64,000 bases of DNA. Source: Microbacterium nanhaiense. Its GTDB lineage: Bacteria > Actinomycetota > Actinomycetes > Actinomycetales > Microbacteriaceae. The position numbers were made by a program, and so were the translations under genes. The notes under the pieces are model-generated. The model had not been told where the DNA came from, ran no database searches, and saw only the letters and a program-made list of their open reading frames with translations. Each line of letters opens with the position of its first letter. The stretch's first letter is position 1. Below are positions 40,320 to 45,378 of this stretch, one piece after another. The DNA lies in the NCBI RefSeq assembly GCF_014646015.1, contig NZ_BMMQ01000003.1, positions 186,001 to 250,000 of the forward strand. Direction: 5' to 3'.

Positions 40320-41732
40320 TCAGCCGAGGCGCTTCAGGGCGAGCTGCGCGGCGAGGCGCCCGGGCATGCCCGTCACGCCCGGACCGGGCACCGTCGACGC
40401 CGAGCAGAGGAAGATCCCGGGGTCGCTCGTCGCGGCCGGATTGAGGCTGAGCCGCGGGCGGGCGATCAGCTGGAACAGATCCGGCACGCCGCCGTCGATC
40501 GAGCCGCCGATCTGGTTCGGATTGAGCGCTTCCATGGCGCGCGGATCCGTGACGTGTCGGGCGAGGATCCGCTCGCGGAAGCCCGGCGCGAACTTCTCGA
40601 TCCGTGCCTCGATCGCCTCCGTGATGTCCCCGTCGAAGCCGAACGGCACGTGGGCGTATCCGCCGAAGGCGCTCTTCCCGCGCGGCGCGCGGGACGGATC
40701 CAGCCTGGACGCCTGCGACAGCAGCAGGAACGGCTCCTCGGGCATGCGGCCCTTCGCGACGTCGCGCTCGGCGGCGATCACCTGCTCCGCGGATCCGCCC
40801 AGGTGCACGAACCCGGCCTCGCGCATCCCCTCATCGAGCCACGGCACCTCGCCCTCGATCGCCCAGTCGACCTTGTACGCGGCGGCGCCGTAGCGCATGC
40901 GATGCAGGGAGTTCGCGTAGGAGGGGCTGAATCGGTGGCCGGCGATCTTGAGCGCGTCGCGCGGGGACGTGTCGAGGAGGACGGCGCGCGCTCGCGGCAG
41001 TTCCTCGATGCGGGAGATGCGGGTTCCGGTGACGATCTCGCCGCCGAGCGACGTCAGCCGGGCGATCAGCGCGTCGGCGATCGACTTCGTCCCGCCGACC
41101 GCCACGGGCCATCCGACGCCGTGGGCGAACGCCCCGAGGGCCACGCCGACCAGCGCCGTCGCGGGCTGGCGCAGATCGACGATCGCGTGCGCCGCGAGCC
41201 CCGACAGCACGGCGCGACTGCGCTCGTCGCGCAGAAGACCGAGGAGCCAGGGCGTCGGCCACACGCTGGTGGCGCCGAGCGCGATGAGGTCCGGAGTCGG
41301 CCGGAGCGGGTTACCGATCGCGCGCCCCAACTGCCGCCATCGGGATCCGAACGTCCCCATGACCGCGCGCCACAGCTTCTCATCGGCGCCGAAGCCCGCC
41401 GCCGTCTCGGCCGCACTTCGGCGGACGAAGCCACTCACCCCGGGACGGATCGCGTGCCCGAGGGGTACATCGTTCTGCGCGAAGGCGAGGCCCTCGCGCT
41501 CGAGCCCGAGGGCACGGAAGGCGGGCGACGCCATCGCCATGGGGTGGTTCGACGCGCAGCAGTCGTGGATGAAACCGGGGAGGGTGACCTCGCCGCTGCG
41601 TAGCCCGCCGCCGGGCGTTTCGGCCGCCTCGTAGACGACGACGCGCCACCCCGCCTCCGCGAGAGTCACCGCGGCGACCAGCCCGTTGGGGCCCGATCCG
41701 ACGATCACGGCATCCACGTCGTATGCGCTCAT
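40320..41732 (-). CDS. Phytoene desaturase-related FAD oxidoreductase
   Basis: A 470-residue flavoprotein of the phytoene dehydrogenase group (PYROXD2-like branch). The FAD dinucleotide motif VIVGSGPNGLVAAVTLAEAG is at residues 9-28 and the C-terminal GPGVTGMPGRLAAQ closes the FAD site. No crt genes are nearby, so carotenoid synthesis is not implied. The ATG follows TAGGGT and GGATCC, six bases, so it is probably leaderless. The 63-bp array starts 44 bases upstream of the start codon. Confidence 0.86.
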   Translation of the reverse strand: MSAYDVDAVIVGSGPNGLVAAVTLAEAGWRVVVYEAAETPGGGLRSGEVTLPGFIHDCCASNHPMAMASPAFRALGLEREGLAFAQNDVPLGHAIRPGVSGFVRRSAAETAAGFGADEKLWRAVMGTFGSRWRQLGRAIGNPLRPTPDLIALGATSVWPTPWLLGLLRDERSRAVLSGLAAHAIVDLRQPATALVGVALGAFAHGVGWPVAVGGTKSIADALIARLTSLGGEIVTGTRISRIEELPRARAVLLDTSPRDALKIAGHRFSPSYANSLHRMRYGAAAYKVDWAIEGEVPWLDEGMREAGFVHLGGSAEQVIAAERDVAKGRMPEEPFLLLSQASRLDPSRAPRGKSAFGGYAHVPFGFDGDITEAIEARIEKFAPGFRERILARHVTDPRAMEALNPNQIGGSIDGGVPDLFQLIARPRLSLNPAATSDPGIFLCSASTVPGPGVTGMPGRLAAQLALKRLG

Positions 41733-41775: not shown

Positions 41776-42086
41776 CGATTCCGGCGATAAGTGGGACATG
41801 GGGTGGAGCGTGTCCCACTTAATGCGGGTATGGCGCCGCTATTCCGGCGTTAACTGGGACATGCTTTGATGCGTGTCCCACTTGCTGCGGGTATGGCGCC
41901 CCTATTCCCGCACTAAGTGGGACACGCCCCAGCCCGTGTCCCACTTGATGCGGGTATGACGCCCCTATTCCGGCGTTAACTGGGACACGCCCCACCATAT
42001 GTCCCACTTAGTGCGCGTATGGCGCCCCTATTCCCGCACTAACTGGGACACGCCCCACCCCGTGTCCCACTTGATGCACGGCACCC
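41776..42086. repeat. Five-unit tandem array of a 63-bp palindromic element
   Basis: Units start at 41776, 41839, 41902, 41965 and 42028; the last is 59 bases and ends exactly at the stop of the anthranilate synthase gene. Every unit holds an inverted repeat with arms AAGTGGGACACG and CGTGTCCCACTT; the arms are perfect over 12 bases in unit 3, and elsewhere have one mismatch or are shorter. Between these, GCGGGTAT...ATTCCCGC can form a second stem around GGCGCC. Units alternate between two forms (CCGGCGTTAAC and CCCGCACTAA). There are no unique spacers, so it is not CRISPR. Confidence 0.92.
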
Positions 42087-44020
42087 TACGCCAATGCGTG
42101 CGTGACGAGGCGCTCGAGGGTGCGGATGCCGTCGCGCGAGAGGATCGACTCCAGGTGACCCTGCACGCTGGCGAAGCGCTCGCCGCGGAGCGCGTACACG
42201 TCGCCCGTGTCGGAGGCCGCGATCTCGACCTCGCCCGCGGTGCACCGGCTCGCGCTCGGGGTCAGGCGCGTCACGCCGGGCATCACGCGAGCCGTGAAGG
42301 TGTTGTAGAAGCCGATCGCCGCGGGCTCGCCGAACACATCGACCGTCAGCTGCAGGCCCTGGTGCGGCGACGCGAGCGGCTGAATCGACAGCCCCAGCGT
42401 GGTCGCGAGCACCTGATGGCTCAGGCACACCGCGAGCAGCGGCCCGCGCTCGTCGATGCGGCGCGACACGACCTCGCGCAGGCGCGCGACGCGGGCGCTC
42501 TCGGTGTCGAGCGGATCCCCGGGGCCGGGCCCCGAGACGACAAGCTCGGCCGCATCGATCTGCGCGTCGGTCACGGCCGACCAGTGCGCGATGTCGACCT
42601 CGAGCCCGAGGTGCCGCAGCTGGTGGGCGAGCATCGTCGTGAAGCGGTCCTCGGCGTCGACGACGAGCGCGCGCTGCCCCGCGAGGGGCTTCGCCGCGGA
42701 TCCGGTCTGCTCCTCCATCCAGAACGGCGCGAGGCGCGAGTTCCGAGAGGCGAGCAGCCCGGCGATCTCCGGATCCTCGGAGAGGCGCCGCGGCGCGGAT
42801 CCGGGGGCGTCCTCGTCGACGCCGGTCACGGACGTCAGCGCGCGCGGGATCGCCCCGATCGCGCCGAGCACGCCGGCGGCCTTGCCGTGGGTTTCGGCGA
42901 CCTCGCCGTAGGGGTCGCTGTGGCGCACGAGCGTGGCACCCGCGGGCACGCGCAGCCGGCCCTGTTCGATGTAGGCCGTGCGGATCAGGATCGGCGCATC
43001 GAGGTCGTGGCCCGTCTCGGTGGGCGTGAACAGCGCCGCGACGCCGGAGTAGTACCCGCGGGGGGTGGTCTCGTGGCGGCGGATCACGGTGCAGGCGTTC
43101 TGCATGGGTGATCCGGTGACCGTCGGGGCGAACATCGTCTCGCGCAGGATGTCGCGCGGATCCATCTGCGATCGGCCGCGGAGGACGTACTCGGTGTGCG
43201 TCAGCCGCGACATCTCCTTGAGGTGCGGGCCGGTGATGCGGCCTCCGTCGCTGCAGACGGCACTCATCATCTTCAGCTCTTCGTCCACGACCATGAAGAG
43301 CTCCTCGGTCTCCTTGGTGTCGCGGAGGAAGGCACTGAGCGTCTCGACGGTGGCACCGCCGGCGGGGTGTCGGAAGGTGCCGGAGATGGGGTTCATCTCG
43401 ACGACGCGCGCCGCGGATCCGTCGCTCCGCGCGGTCACGTGCGCCTCGGGGCTGGCCCCGACGGCGACGTGGTCGCGGGTGACGATCGCGAAGGTCCAGT
43501 ACGCGCCGCGCTCGTGTTCGAGCAGCGCGCGGAACCAGGTGAGCGCGGCGACGCGCGGATCCGCGTTGACGTTCGCGCGGTAGTCGCGGCGGATGACGAA
43601 GTTCGCCCCTTCGCCGCGGCCGATCTCGTCGCGGATCACGGTGCGCACGATCTCGGCGTAGCTGTCGTCGTCGATGTCGAAGCCCGCGTCGGTGAGCGGC
43701 ACCTGCGCCGTGGGGAGTTCGGCGAGCACGTCGGCGGCGGGGATCCGCTGGTGGTCCTCGACGAGCAGGCAGCGCAGCGGCGCACCGTCGTCGTGCGCCT
43801 CGAAGCCGCGCTCGGCGACCTGGCGGTAGGGCACCATCGCGAGCACCTCGCGGGCGGATCCGTCGGCGTCCGTGAGGGGGATGTCGGCGAGCCTGTCGAC
43901 GTCGACGGTCGGGCCCGTCAGGACTTCGACCGTTTCGGCGCCGTCGCGGGCGATCAGCGCGAAGGAACGCTCGGGATCCGCCGCGAGCGCGGAAATCAGG
44001 CGGGCGGGATTGTCGGCCAC
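42086..44020 (-). CDS. Fused anthranilate synthase (TrpE-TrpG; PhzE-like)
   Basis: A 644-residue fusion: chorismate-using TrpE-type domain (residues 1-430) and glutamine amidotransferase (about 445-640). Motifs include VEMNPISGTFRHP, VVDEELKMMSAVC, ETMFAPTVTGSPM and RRHETTPRGYYSG in the first domain, and the nucleophile motif AVCLSHQ with VQGHLES in the second. Sequence style is that of PhzE/ADIC synthases and actinobacterial fused TrpEG proteins. The tryptophan-coding leader and attenuator upstream argue for a role in tryptophan supply, and no other phenazine gene is present. The N-terminal LLES tryptophan-binding motif of classical TrpE is not seen. The GTG at 44020 follows GAAGAGAGA. Confidence 0.88.
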   Translation of the reverse strand: MADNPARLISALAADPERSFALIARDGAETVEVLTGPTVDVDRLADIPLTDADGSAREVLAMVPYRQVAERGFEAHDDGAPLRCLLVEDHQRIPAADVLAELPTAQVPLTDAGFDIDDDSYAEIVRTVIRDEIGRGEGANFVIRRDYRANVNADPRVAALTWFRALLEHERGAYWTFAIVTRDHVAVGASPEAHVTARSDGSAARVVEMNPISGTFRHPAGGATVETLSAFLRDTKETEELFMVVDEELKMMSAVCSDGGRITGPHLKEMSRLTHTEYVLRGRSQMDPRDILRETMFAPTVTGSPMQNACTVIRRHETTPRGYYSGVAALFTPTETGHDLDAPILIRTAYIEQGRLRVPAGATLVRHSDPYGEVAETHGKAAGVLGAIGAIPRALTSVTGVDEDAPGSAPRRLSEDPEIAGLLASRNSRLAPFWMEEQTGSAAKPLAGQRALVVDAEDRFTTMLAHQLRHLGLEVDIAHWSAVTDAQIDAAELVVSGPGPGDPLDTESARVARLREVVSRRIDERGPLLAVCLSHQVLATTLGLSIQPLASPHQGLQLTVDVFGEPAAIGFYNTFTARVMPGVTRLTPSASRCTAGEVEIAASDTGDVYALRGERFASVQGHLESILSRDGIRTLERLVTHALA

Positions 44021-44061: not shown

Positions 44062-44088
44062 AACGACCGCCGGTGAAGGGCGGTCGTT
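44062..44088 (-). terminator. Attenuator hairpin upstream of the fused anthranilate synthase
   Basis: On the minus strand AACGACCGCC (44088-44079) pairs perfectly with GGCGGTCGTT (44071-44062); the loop is CTTCACC and a TTT overlaps the 3' end. It lies 27 bases after the leader-peptide stop. The GGCGG next to that stop can pair with the CCGCC of the first arm, offering an antiterminator. Confidence 0.85.
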
Positions 44089-44115
44089 GAAAATCGGGTT
44101 CACGAAACGGGCCGC

Positions 44116-44151
44116 CTACGAGGCGCGCCACCAGGTGAGGTTCGTGAACAC
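44116..44151 (-). CDS. trpL: Tryptophan leader peptide ([11 protein letters not shown])
   Basis: An 11-codon frame, GTG TTC ACG AAC CTC ACC TGG TGG CGC GCC TCG TAG, read on the minus strand. Two adjacent Trp codons, a stop right before the attenuator, and a fused anthranilate synthase downstream are the hallmarks of classical ribosome-mediated attenuation. When Trp-tRNA is short, the ribosome would stall at TGG TGG and favour the antiterminator. TAGCGT ends seven bases before the GTG and no ribosome site exists, so the leader should be translated from the very 5' end of the mRNA. Confidence 0.88.
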
Positions 44152-44158
44152 ACGTCAG

Positions 44159-44188
44159 ACGCTACACACTCCCTGAGGATCCGTGCAA
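44159..44188 (-). promoter_or_regulatory. Promoter of the trp leader
   Basis: On the minus strand TTGCAC (44188-44183) and TAGCGT (44164-44159) are 18 bases apart. Transcription would begin at or next to the leader GTG at 44151. The divergent ispG promoter (TAGTCT, 44217-44222) lies 30 bases away. Confidence 0.7.
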
Positions 44189-44229
44189 CTGGGGGAGCCT
44201 TGTCGGTCACGCGGCGTAGTCTTATGCAC

Positions 44230-45378
44230 GTGCCAGCAGTGAACCTCGGTATGCCGACCGCCCAGACCCTCGCGCCCCGCCGCAAGTCACGACAGATCAA
44301 TGTCGGGAAGGTGAAGGTCGGCGGCAACGCACCCGTCAGCGTGCAGTCGATGACCACGACGAAGACGCACGACATCAACGCGACGCTCCAGCAGATCGCC
44401 GAGCTGACGGCGTCGGGCTGCGAGATCGTCCGTGTCGCGTGTCCGACCGACAAGGACGCCGACGCGCTGAAGATCATCGCGATGAAGAGCCAGATCCCGG
44501 TCATCGCGGACATCCACTTCCAGCCGAAGTACGTCTTCCAGGCGATCGACGCCGGTTGCGGCGCCGTGCGCGTGAACCCCGGCAACATCCGCAAGTTCGA
44601 CGACAAGGTCGGCGAGATTGCCAAGGCGGCGAAGGACGCGGGCGTCTCGCTGCGCATCGGCGTGAACGCCGGCTCGCTCGACCGGCGCCTGCTGGAGAAG
44701 TACGGCAAGGCGACGCCCGAGGCGCTCGTCGAGTCGGCCGTGTGGGAGGCATCGCTGTTCGAAGAGCACGACTTCCACGACTTCAAGATCTCGGTCAAGC
44801 ACAACGACCCCGTCGTCATGGTGCAGGCGTACCGCATGCTCGCCGAGCGGGGCGACTGGCCGCTCCACCTCGGCGTCACGGAGGCCGGACCGGCCTTCCA
44901 AGGCACGATCAAGTCGGCGACCGCGTTCGGCATCCTGCTGGGCGAGGGCATCGGCGACACGATCCGTGTGTCGCTCTCCGCTCCGCCCGCGGAGGAGGTC
45001 AAGGTCGGCCACCAGATCCTGCAATCGCTGAACCTGCGCGAGCGCACGCTGGAGATCGTCTCCTGCCCGTCGTGTGGTCGCGCCCAGGTCGACGTCTACA
45101 CGCTCGCGGAGGACGTCACGGAGGGGCTCAAGGACATGACCGTGCCGCTGCGTGTGGCCGTCATGGGCTGCGTCGTCAACGGTCCCGGCGAGGCGCGCGA
45201 CGCCGACCTCGGAGTGGCGAGCGGCAATGGCAAGGGGCAGATCTTCGTGAAGGGCGAGGTCATCAAGACCGTGCCCGAATCCGAGATCGTGCAGACCCTC
45301 ATCGAGGAGGCCAACCGCCTCGCCGACGAGATGGGCCCCGACGCCCGCGTGGGCACCGCGCAGGTCGTGACCGTCTGA
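44230..45378 (+). CDS. ispG: 4-hydroxy-3-methylbut-2-enyl diphosphate synthase
   Basis: Fe-S enzyme of the MEP isoprenoid route, forming HMBPP. The 382-residue protein has N-terminal [14 protein letters not shown], the TIM-barrel motif [12 protein letters not shown] and the C-terminal cluster cysteines in [12 protein letters not shown] and [17 protein letters not shown] (44217-44222) ends seven bases before the GTG at 44230, so this start is preferred over the ATG at 44224 and an upstream frame from 44200. A hairpin follows the stop. Confidence 0.95.

Follow-up and report, generated by a model that had tools for sequence, protein, structure and literature searches.

The tryptophan attenuators closest to the element analysed here have been described in Streptomyces and in Sinorhizobium meliloti. 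In Streptomyces lividans TK24, the leaders trpL1 (MFAHSTRNWWWTAHPAAH, before trpE) and trpL2 (before trpS) are reported to be transcribed leaderless (PMC8079986), and a trpE attenuator of S. venezuelae is credited to Lin et al. 1998. The attenuated RNA of the fused trpE(G) of S. meliloti is reported to begin at the trpL ATG (PMC7298713). Candidate trp attenuators have also been reported in Corynebacterium and Streptomyces (PMC1262725); the word "leaderless" does not occur in that paper, and its trp section deals with those two genera only, though Leifsonia xyli is among its genomes. A survey of Trp attenuation in Actinobacteria (Korolev et al., 2015) is cited in PMC4833913. For Corynebacterium diphtheriae, PMC5784534 reports a leaderless leader of ilvB and a trp leader whose start site was not found. 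According to PMC4633059, mycobacterial mRNAs opening with ATG or GTG undergo leaderless translation, and Cys-rich upstream ORFs in mycobacteria are proposed leaderless attenuators for which a 5' AUG or GUG suffices, the amino acid being cysteine and not tryptophan. Among the matches listed, no paper title was found to name a trp leader of Microbacterium.

Our window is a stretch of 64,000 nucleotides from Microbacterium nanhaiense, and the element lies on its minus strand ahead of a gene for a fused, PhzE-like anthranilate synthase, TrpE(G) (42086..44020, minus strand, 644 aa, GTG start). We read the element as a ribosome-mediated transcription attenuator, with its leader read leaderless, that controls the genome's sole candidate anthranilate synthase, and we give this reading a probability of about 0.9. 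In the direction of transcription (all parts on the minus strand), a weak -35-like TTGCAC (44183..44188, read from the sequence) is separated by a spacer of 18 nt from the -10 box TAGCGT (44159..44164), which lies 7 nt ahead of the leader GTG at 44151. The leader ORF (44116..44151), at whose first base we infer the 5' end of the RNA, encodes 11 residues and reads GTG TTC ACG AAC CTC ACC TGG TGG CGC GCC TCG TAG, with the tandem TGG at 44133-44128 and the stop TAG at 44118-44116. Arm 2, GGCGG (44112..44116), starts inside the stop codon and is the 5' arm of the antiterminator, and arm 3, CCGCC (44079..44083), is common to antiterminator and terminator. The intrinsic-terminator-like hairpin (44062..44088; 10 bp, loop of 7, AACGACCGCC-7-GGCGGTCGTT) contains arm 4, GGCGG (44071-44067), and is followed by a short T-run, TTT (44063-44061). 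Folding predicts a further hairpin with no ribosome on the leader, a shield or pause hairpin (44098..44149) that contains the stop-codon arm. The sequence-only reading had placed the -35/-10 pair, the GTG, the 11-residue frame with two adjacent tryptophans, the 10-bp hairpin and the TTT, all at the correct positions.

Sequence and folding together thus provide a tandem-Trp leader ORF, a terminator structure before the gene and an antiterminator exclusive with it. The RNA from 44151 to 44050 is more stably folded than its shuffles (z -3.09, with 1 of 200 shuffles as good). At gathering score, Rfam finds only two tRNAs in the window and no curated family for the leader element, and a further Rfam search on the element gave two matches at chance level (E 4.6 and 4.8). 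With trpL1-trpE of S. lividans, the window shares a Trp-rich leader reported as leaderless, two hairpins and a monocistronic trpE; the two differ in that MFAHSTRNWWWTAHPAAH contains WWW with a longer tail after it, whereas in the window leader, which begins with GTG, WW is followed by three further codons. Double or triple UGG codons, a G+C-rich terminator and conserved complementary triples are shared with the Corynebacterium and Streptomyces attenuators of PMC1262725. The trpL-trpE(G) system of S. meliloti likewise shares a Trp attenuator, a fused trpE(G) and an RNA opening with the trpL start codon, but it belongs to another phylum, starts with ATG, encodes a 14-aa peptide and has a leader RNA and a peptide that are reported to be active in trans as well. 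Leaderless initiation had been put forward as the unusual feature of our locus; because it is already published for the leaders of S. lividans trpE and S. meliloti fused trpE(G), it is not what sets this element apart. The mechanism is already known, and the Microbacterium element is a further instance of it.

Conservation was assessed with a protein scan of one genome per species (84,980 species), from which we took the best 80 of at least 565 stretches encoding a relative, so that all counts describe close relatives. Fifty-three of these loci belong to Microbacterium, and the rest to Agromyces, Rathayibacter, Jiangella, Kitasatospora, Kutzneria, Embleya and further genera. A Trp-Trp leader frame lies ahead of the gene in 77 of the best 80 loci; among those without one, L027 and L047 offer too short a sequence ahead of the gene, and in L082 (Pseudomonas aeruginosa PA7) no Trp-Trp leader was found ahead of the gene. 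Together with the window, this gives 78 leaders. The same rule applied to shuffled upstream regions of these 78 stretches finds on average 6.4 (3–13), and a stricter rule (ATG or GTG start, at most 25 aa, WW) finds 78 of 78 real leaders vs 1.1 after shuffling. Because the leader is kept to this extent in the best related loci relative to shuffles, the element is not a product of chance. Its layout is also kept: 70 of 78 leaders have their first TGG 15 nt ahead of the stop (two Trp codons, three more codons, stop), L008 has a variant with three Trp codons and two further codons before the stop, and in 64 of 78 GGCGG is no more than 10 nt away from where the stop codon begins.

The spacing between the -10 box and the leader start is the second conserved property. 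TANNNT ends 6 nt (43 leaders) or 7 nt (33 leaders) ahead of the start in 76 of the 78, compared with a mean of 1.3 and a maximum of 5 of 78 in single-base shuffles in which 5–8 nt were permitted. Leader start codons for the main counts were chosen by eye from the list of frames; when the choice is mechanical, the box stands at 6–7 nt in 73 of 78 with the nearest start and in 59 of 78 with the farthest. The loci scored as misses are L076 and L080, where an adjoining in-frame GTG would give the right spacing. A Shine-Dalgarno core (4 nt, at -20 to -5) precedes none of the 78 leader starts, vs 10.2 (3–19) in shuffles. Ahead of the main gene, such a core is found before some candidate start in 52 of 78 loci, a rough figure with several starts per gene, and the window is one of the 26 loci that lack it. 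TGN stands ahead of the -10 hexamer in 57 of 76 loci, where the window instead has GTG. Of the proposed promoter pair, the -10 half is borne out by its conservation; the other half is not, as TTGCAC fits TTGACA at three of six positions and conservation is absent at the -35, where in 43 of 76 loci no spacer from 16 to 19 yields more than two matches of six to TTGACA (L004, with the highest protein identity among the best loci, has TTGCGG at a spacer of 18).

A -10 box at promoter spacing with no ribosome site is the arrangement of a leaderless mRNA. We infer that the transcription start is at or very close to GTG 44151, and the RNA would therefore open with the leader start codon and be translated by the leaderless route. 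It is also conceivable that the attenuator is real but transcription begins further upstream, the leader being translated conventionally on a longer transcript. The leader start codon is a GTG, the 5' end is a prediction from sequence, the -35 is weak, and a generic promoter and terminator scan of the window found neither at the scanner's thresholds, so far as the promoter is concerned in keeping with such a start; the fixed spacing and the Shine-Dalgarno core at 0 of 78 where shuffles give about 10 speak against it, as does the trpE leader of S. lividans being reported as leaderless, and we hold an upstream start to be very unlikely. Leaderless translation of the leader, as first proposed from the sequence, is still the best reading. 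The exact start site is important because GTG 44151 is overlapped by another GTG, at 44153, in a different frame (44153-44149, minus strand): a start two bases earlier would give a 5'-terminal, out-of-frame start codon at 44153 and a frame with no Trp codons. On the other strand, the divergent ispG has TAGTCT (44217-44222) 7 nt from an in-frame GTG at 44230 (44217-44232, plus strand), and from this spacing, the same as that of the leader, ispG may likewise have a leaderless mRNA, in a back-to-back arrangement with the attenuator.

The hairpins were tested on an alignment, A1, of 70 loci (67 distinct rows), which omits 8 of the 78 (L065, L068, L069, L075–L078 and L083) because their longer leaders or arms are hard to place. 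In A1, 90.8% of the terminator cells are paired and 24 cells have changed on both sides, a result as high in 0 of 500 shuffles; all slid versions score lower, with a slide of +3 still 71.9% paired and scoring 0.104 vs 0.137. The antiterminator, which pairs the stop-codon arm with the 5' arm of the terminator, can form in 94.5% of cells, five of which have changed on both sides. Its support is mainly conserved complementarity, because its further pair types are below nearly all shuffles and some slides beat its covariation score. Conservation of the shield hairpin is weaker than that of the terminator (79.6% of cells paired), and the structure returned by RNAalifold comprises the terminator plus a small stem across the Trp codons. 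Counted over all 78 loci, the arm triple (a 5-mer at the stop codon, its complement, and the 5-mer again in the terminator) is present in 68, vs 3.5 (maximum 8) with shuffled tails; the exact triple is absent in ten loci, L004, L054, L055, L065, L069, L075–L078 and L083. In 39 loci, the stop-codon 5-mer also occurs in complement ahead of the stop. An alignment of related genomes had been named as a check on the sequence-only reading, and the covarying terminator, the competing antiterminator and the WW codons kept in 77 of the best 80 loci support both its terminator hairpin and its reading as Trp attenuation.

How well this hairpin terminates by itself is a separate matter. Four T are found among the 8 bases past the hairpin in the window, while at least five T in 8 are found in 48 of the 70 aligned loci and four or fewer in 22 of 70, and the hairpin finder chose a different hairpin in some loci. 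The short T-run in the window and in those 22 loci, and the scan that returned no terminator, fit termination that is mainly Rho-dependent or otherwise assisted, the hairpin not being an efficient intrinsic terminator alone. The strong conservation and covariation of the hairpin, together with the 48 loci with longer T-runs, argue against this, and we consider it unlikely.

For the intrinsic attenuator that we favour, we folded the nascent RNA beyond the ribosome in the window by ribosome position, with the ribosome edge assumed to lie 12 nt past the first base of the A-site codon. With the ribosome on either Trp codon, the GGCGG:CCGCC pairing and an inner stem form at -11.2 to -12.0 kcal/mol before the 3' arm of the terminator is made. 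A ribosome at the stop codon leaves a fold of only -2.8 kcal/mol, and with no ribosome, the shield hairpin (-24.7) sequesters GGCGG. The antiterminator core is 5 bp, and the completed terminator is more stable in every ribosome case; because the terminator wins at equilibrium, control must be kinetic. When charged tRNA-Trp is plentiful, the ribosome would reach the stop codon and mask GGCGG 44116-44112, leaving CCGCC 44083-44079 to pair with GGCGG 44071-44067 and form the terminator. When it is scarce, the ribosome would halt at the tandem TGG with the shield hairpin opened and the first GGCGG exposed, and this arm would bind CCGCC ahead of synthesis of the terminator 3' arm, letting the polymerase enter trpE(G). 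Without a ribosome, GGCGG would be kept in the shield hairpin, and transcription would end. As a candidate additional function, we considered a trans-acting leader RNA as in S. meliloti and rejected it: for trpD, trpC, trpB and trpA of this genome, pairing between the leader RNA and the gene start nowhere stands out above dinucleotide shuffles, of which 46, 86, 62 and 169 of 200, respectively, were as good.

The protein encoded downstream joins a chorismate-binding domain and a class-I glutamine amidotransferase domain in a single fused chain. Its match to 3r74 covers residues 19–643 at 517.7 bits, and that to TrpE 1i1q reaches 68.7 bits. The 3r74 entry is titled anthranilate/para-aminobenzoate synthase component I, and we take it to be PhzE. 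Among the NCBIfam anthranilate synthase equivalogs, the best score was 156.8 bits vs a cut-off of 645, with 25 models listed of 42. The genome, with a completeness of 99.98%, has three chorismate-binding proteins, TrpE(G) included; the second is a 650-aa fusion with the amidotransferase first (pabB 322.5 bits, cut-off 328.4), and the third an isochorismate synthase above its cut-off. All seven amidotransferase matches are assigned (TrpE(G), the PabB-like fusion, GMP synthase, carbamoyl-phosphate synthase, CTP synthase, HisH and PurQ), so the genome has no free TrpG. trpD, trpC, trpB and trpA all score above their family cut-offs, and no second trpE or trpG was found in the genome. Since these four genes are present and a free TrpG is not, the fused protein would be the best candidate anthranilate synthase of the genome; and since, in addition, there is no second trpE and the leader has Trp codons, its role is very likely, on gene content, tryptophan supply.

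The gene product might instead act in the synthesis of a secondary metabolite as a PhzE-type aminodeoxyisochorismate synthase, with the Trp attenuator only coupling it to the tryptophan level. The nearest solved relative being 3r74, far above TrpE, fits this, as do the listed NCBIfam models that stay below their cut-offs and the other chorismate-binding proteins, PabB-like and isochorismate synthase, with bifunctional PabB a conceivable source of anthranilate. Against it stand the remaining trp genes in a nearly complete genome that offers no further trpE or trpG candidate, and the same gene following a Trp leader in nearly all of the best loci, and we regard it as highly improbable. A PHZA_PHZB search of the genome gave no match, in a run where the control also matched nowhere. 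The statement that the attenuator settles the role of this PhzE-like protein was therefore too strong for a protein nearer to 3r74 than to TrpE, and its substance, tryptophan supply, is very likely from the gene content and the Trp codons.

The tryptophan genes of this genome are scattered (G000:C2:146008, C2:502415-505106 and C3:228104), with trpE(G) in the window, trpD apart and trpC-trpB-trpA clustered and followed, by eye, by an lgt-like gene. The covariance model used below matched this genome only before trpE(G), with filters that may lose weak matches, and the coding strand of the trpC-trpB-trpA and trpD loci showed no short frame containing TGGTGG. Past the end of trpE(G), likewise on the minus strand, a gene at 40320-41732 encodes an FAD-dependent oxidoreductase, distantly like the carotenoid CrtO type.

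A wider view of the element comes from a covariance model, R1, built from 28 of the 78 loci with the -10 included; because the -10 is part of the model, its class-wide matches lean towards the 6–7 nt spacing. At E <= 0.001, R1 matches in 52 of 299 genomes of the family and 109 of 296 of the class, and once in the genome of the window. The family matches span 26 of 85 genera, and the other genomes may lack the form or have a diverged one. We fetched 35 matches picked for variety, many of them weak: eight precede trpE(G), two another TrpE clade, seven trpS, one trpD, three trpB and three a methyltransferase-like gene, and 11 have no recognisable trp gene (E 4e-6 or weaker) and are probably false. 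Gene families were confirmed for L128, L129, L138, L145, L146, L152 and L156, and named by sequence likeness for L139, L140, L142, L143, L153, L154, L160, L161 and L133. WW leaders stand before trpS in L129, L140, L142, L143, L145, L160 and L161, before trpD in L138 and before trpB in L152–L154. In these trpS, trpD and trpB leaders, the -10 is at 6–7 nt in 10 of 11 (the exception being L142), with the -10 again included in R1; L155 has a single Trp codon. The trpS leader of L129, MTTRTCTQLWWAA, is close to the published S. lividans trpL2, MMTRTCTQLWRAA.

A Methyltransf_11-like protein of ~250 aa also has a WW leader ahead of its gene, with the -10 at 6–7 nt (L133, L146 and L156; L163, L167 and L169). 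In L133, L146 and L156, ~116 nt separate this leader from the beginning of the oriented locus. CCCACC/GGTGGG replace CCGCC/GGCGG in all four arms of L156 and in arms 2 to 4 of L146. When searched for by its protein, the gene was found in 19 of 296 class genomes, with a WW leader at 3 of the 19 loci; two of the three are the same places as L146 and L133, and L156, the query, from a family genome, itself has a WW leader. The methyltransferase-like lead is weakened because only these 3 of 19 protein-found loci carry the leader. We put it at slightly under even odds that, throughout the actinobacterial class, leaderless Trp attenuators of this single architecture, with identical repeated arms and a short leader opening the RNA, make up a dispersed regulon in which different genomes place them before trpE(G), trpD, trpB, trpS and the uncharacterised methyltransferase-like gene.

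The comparative evidence is strong that leaderless initiation and attenuation are joined in one element in this group, where the spacing from the -10 box to the start is kept about as tightly as the Trp codons themselves. The element also marks the protein that most likely catalyses the opening step of tryptophan synthesis in these bacteria, judged from gene content, and that is missed by the listed curated anthranilate synthase models. If the regulon is real, the methyltransferase-like gene would count as an addition to the tryptophan response.
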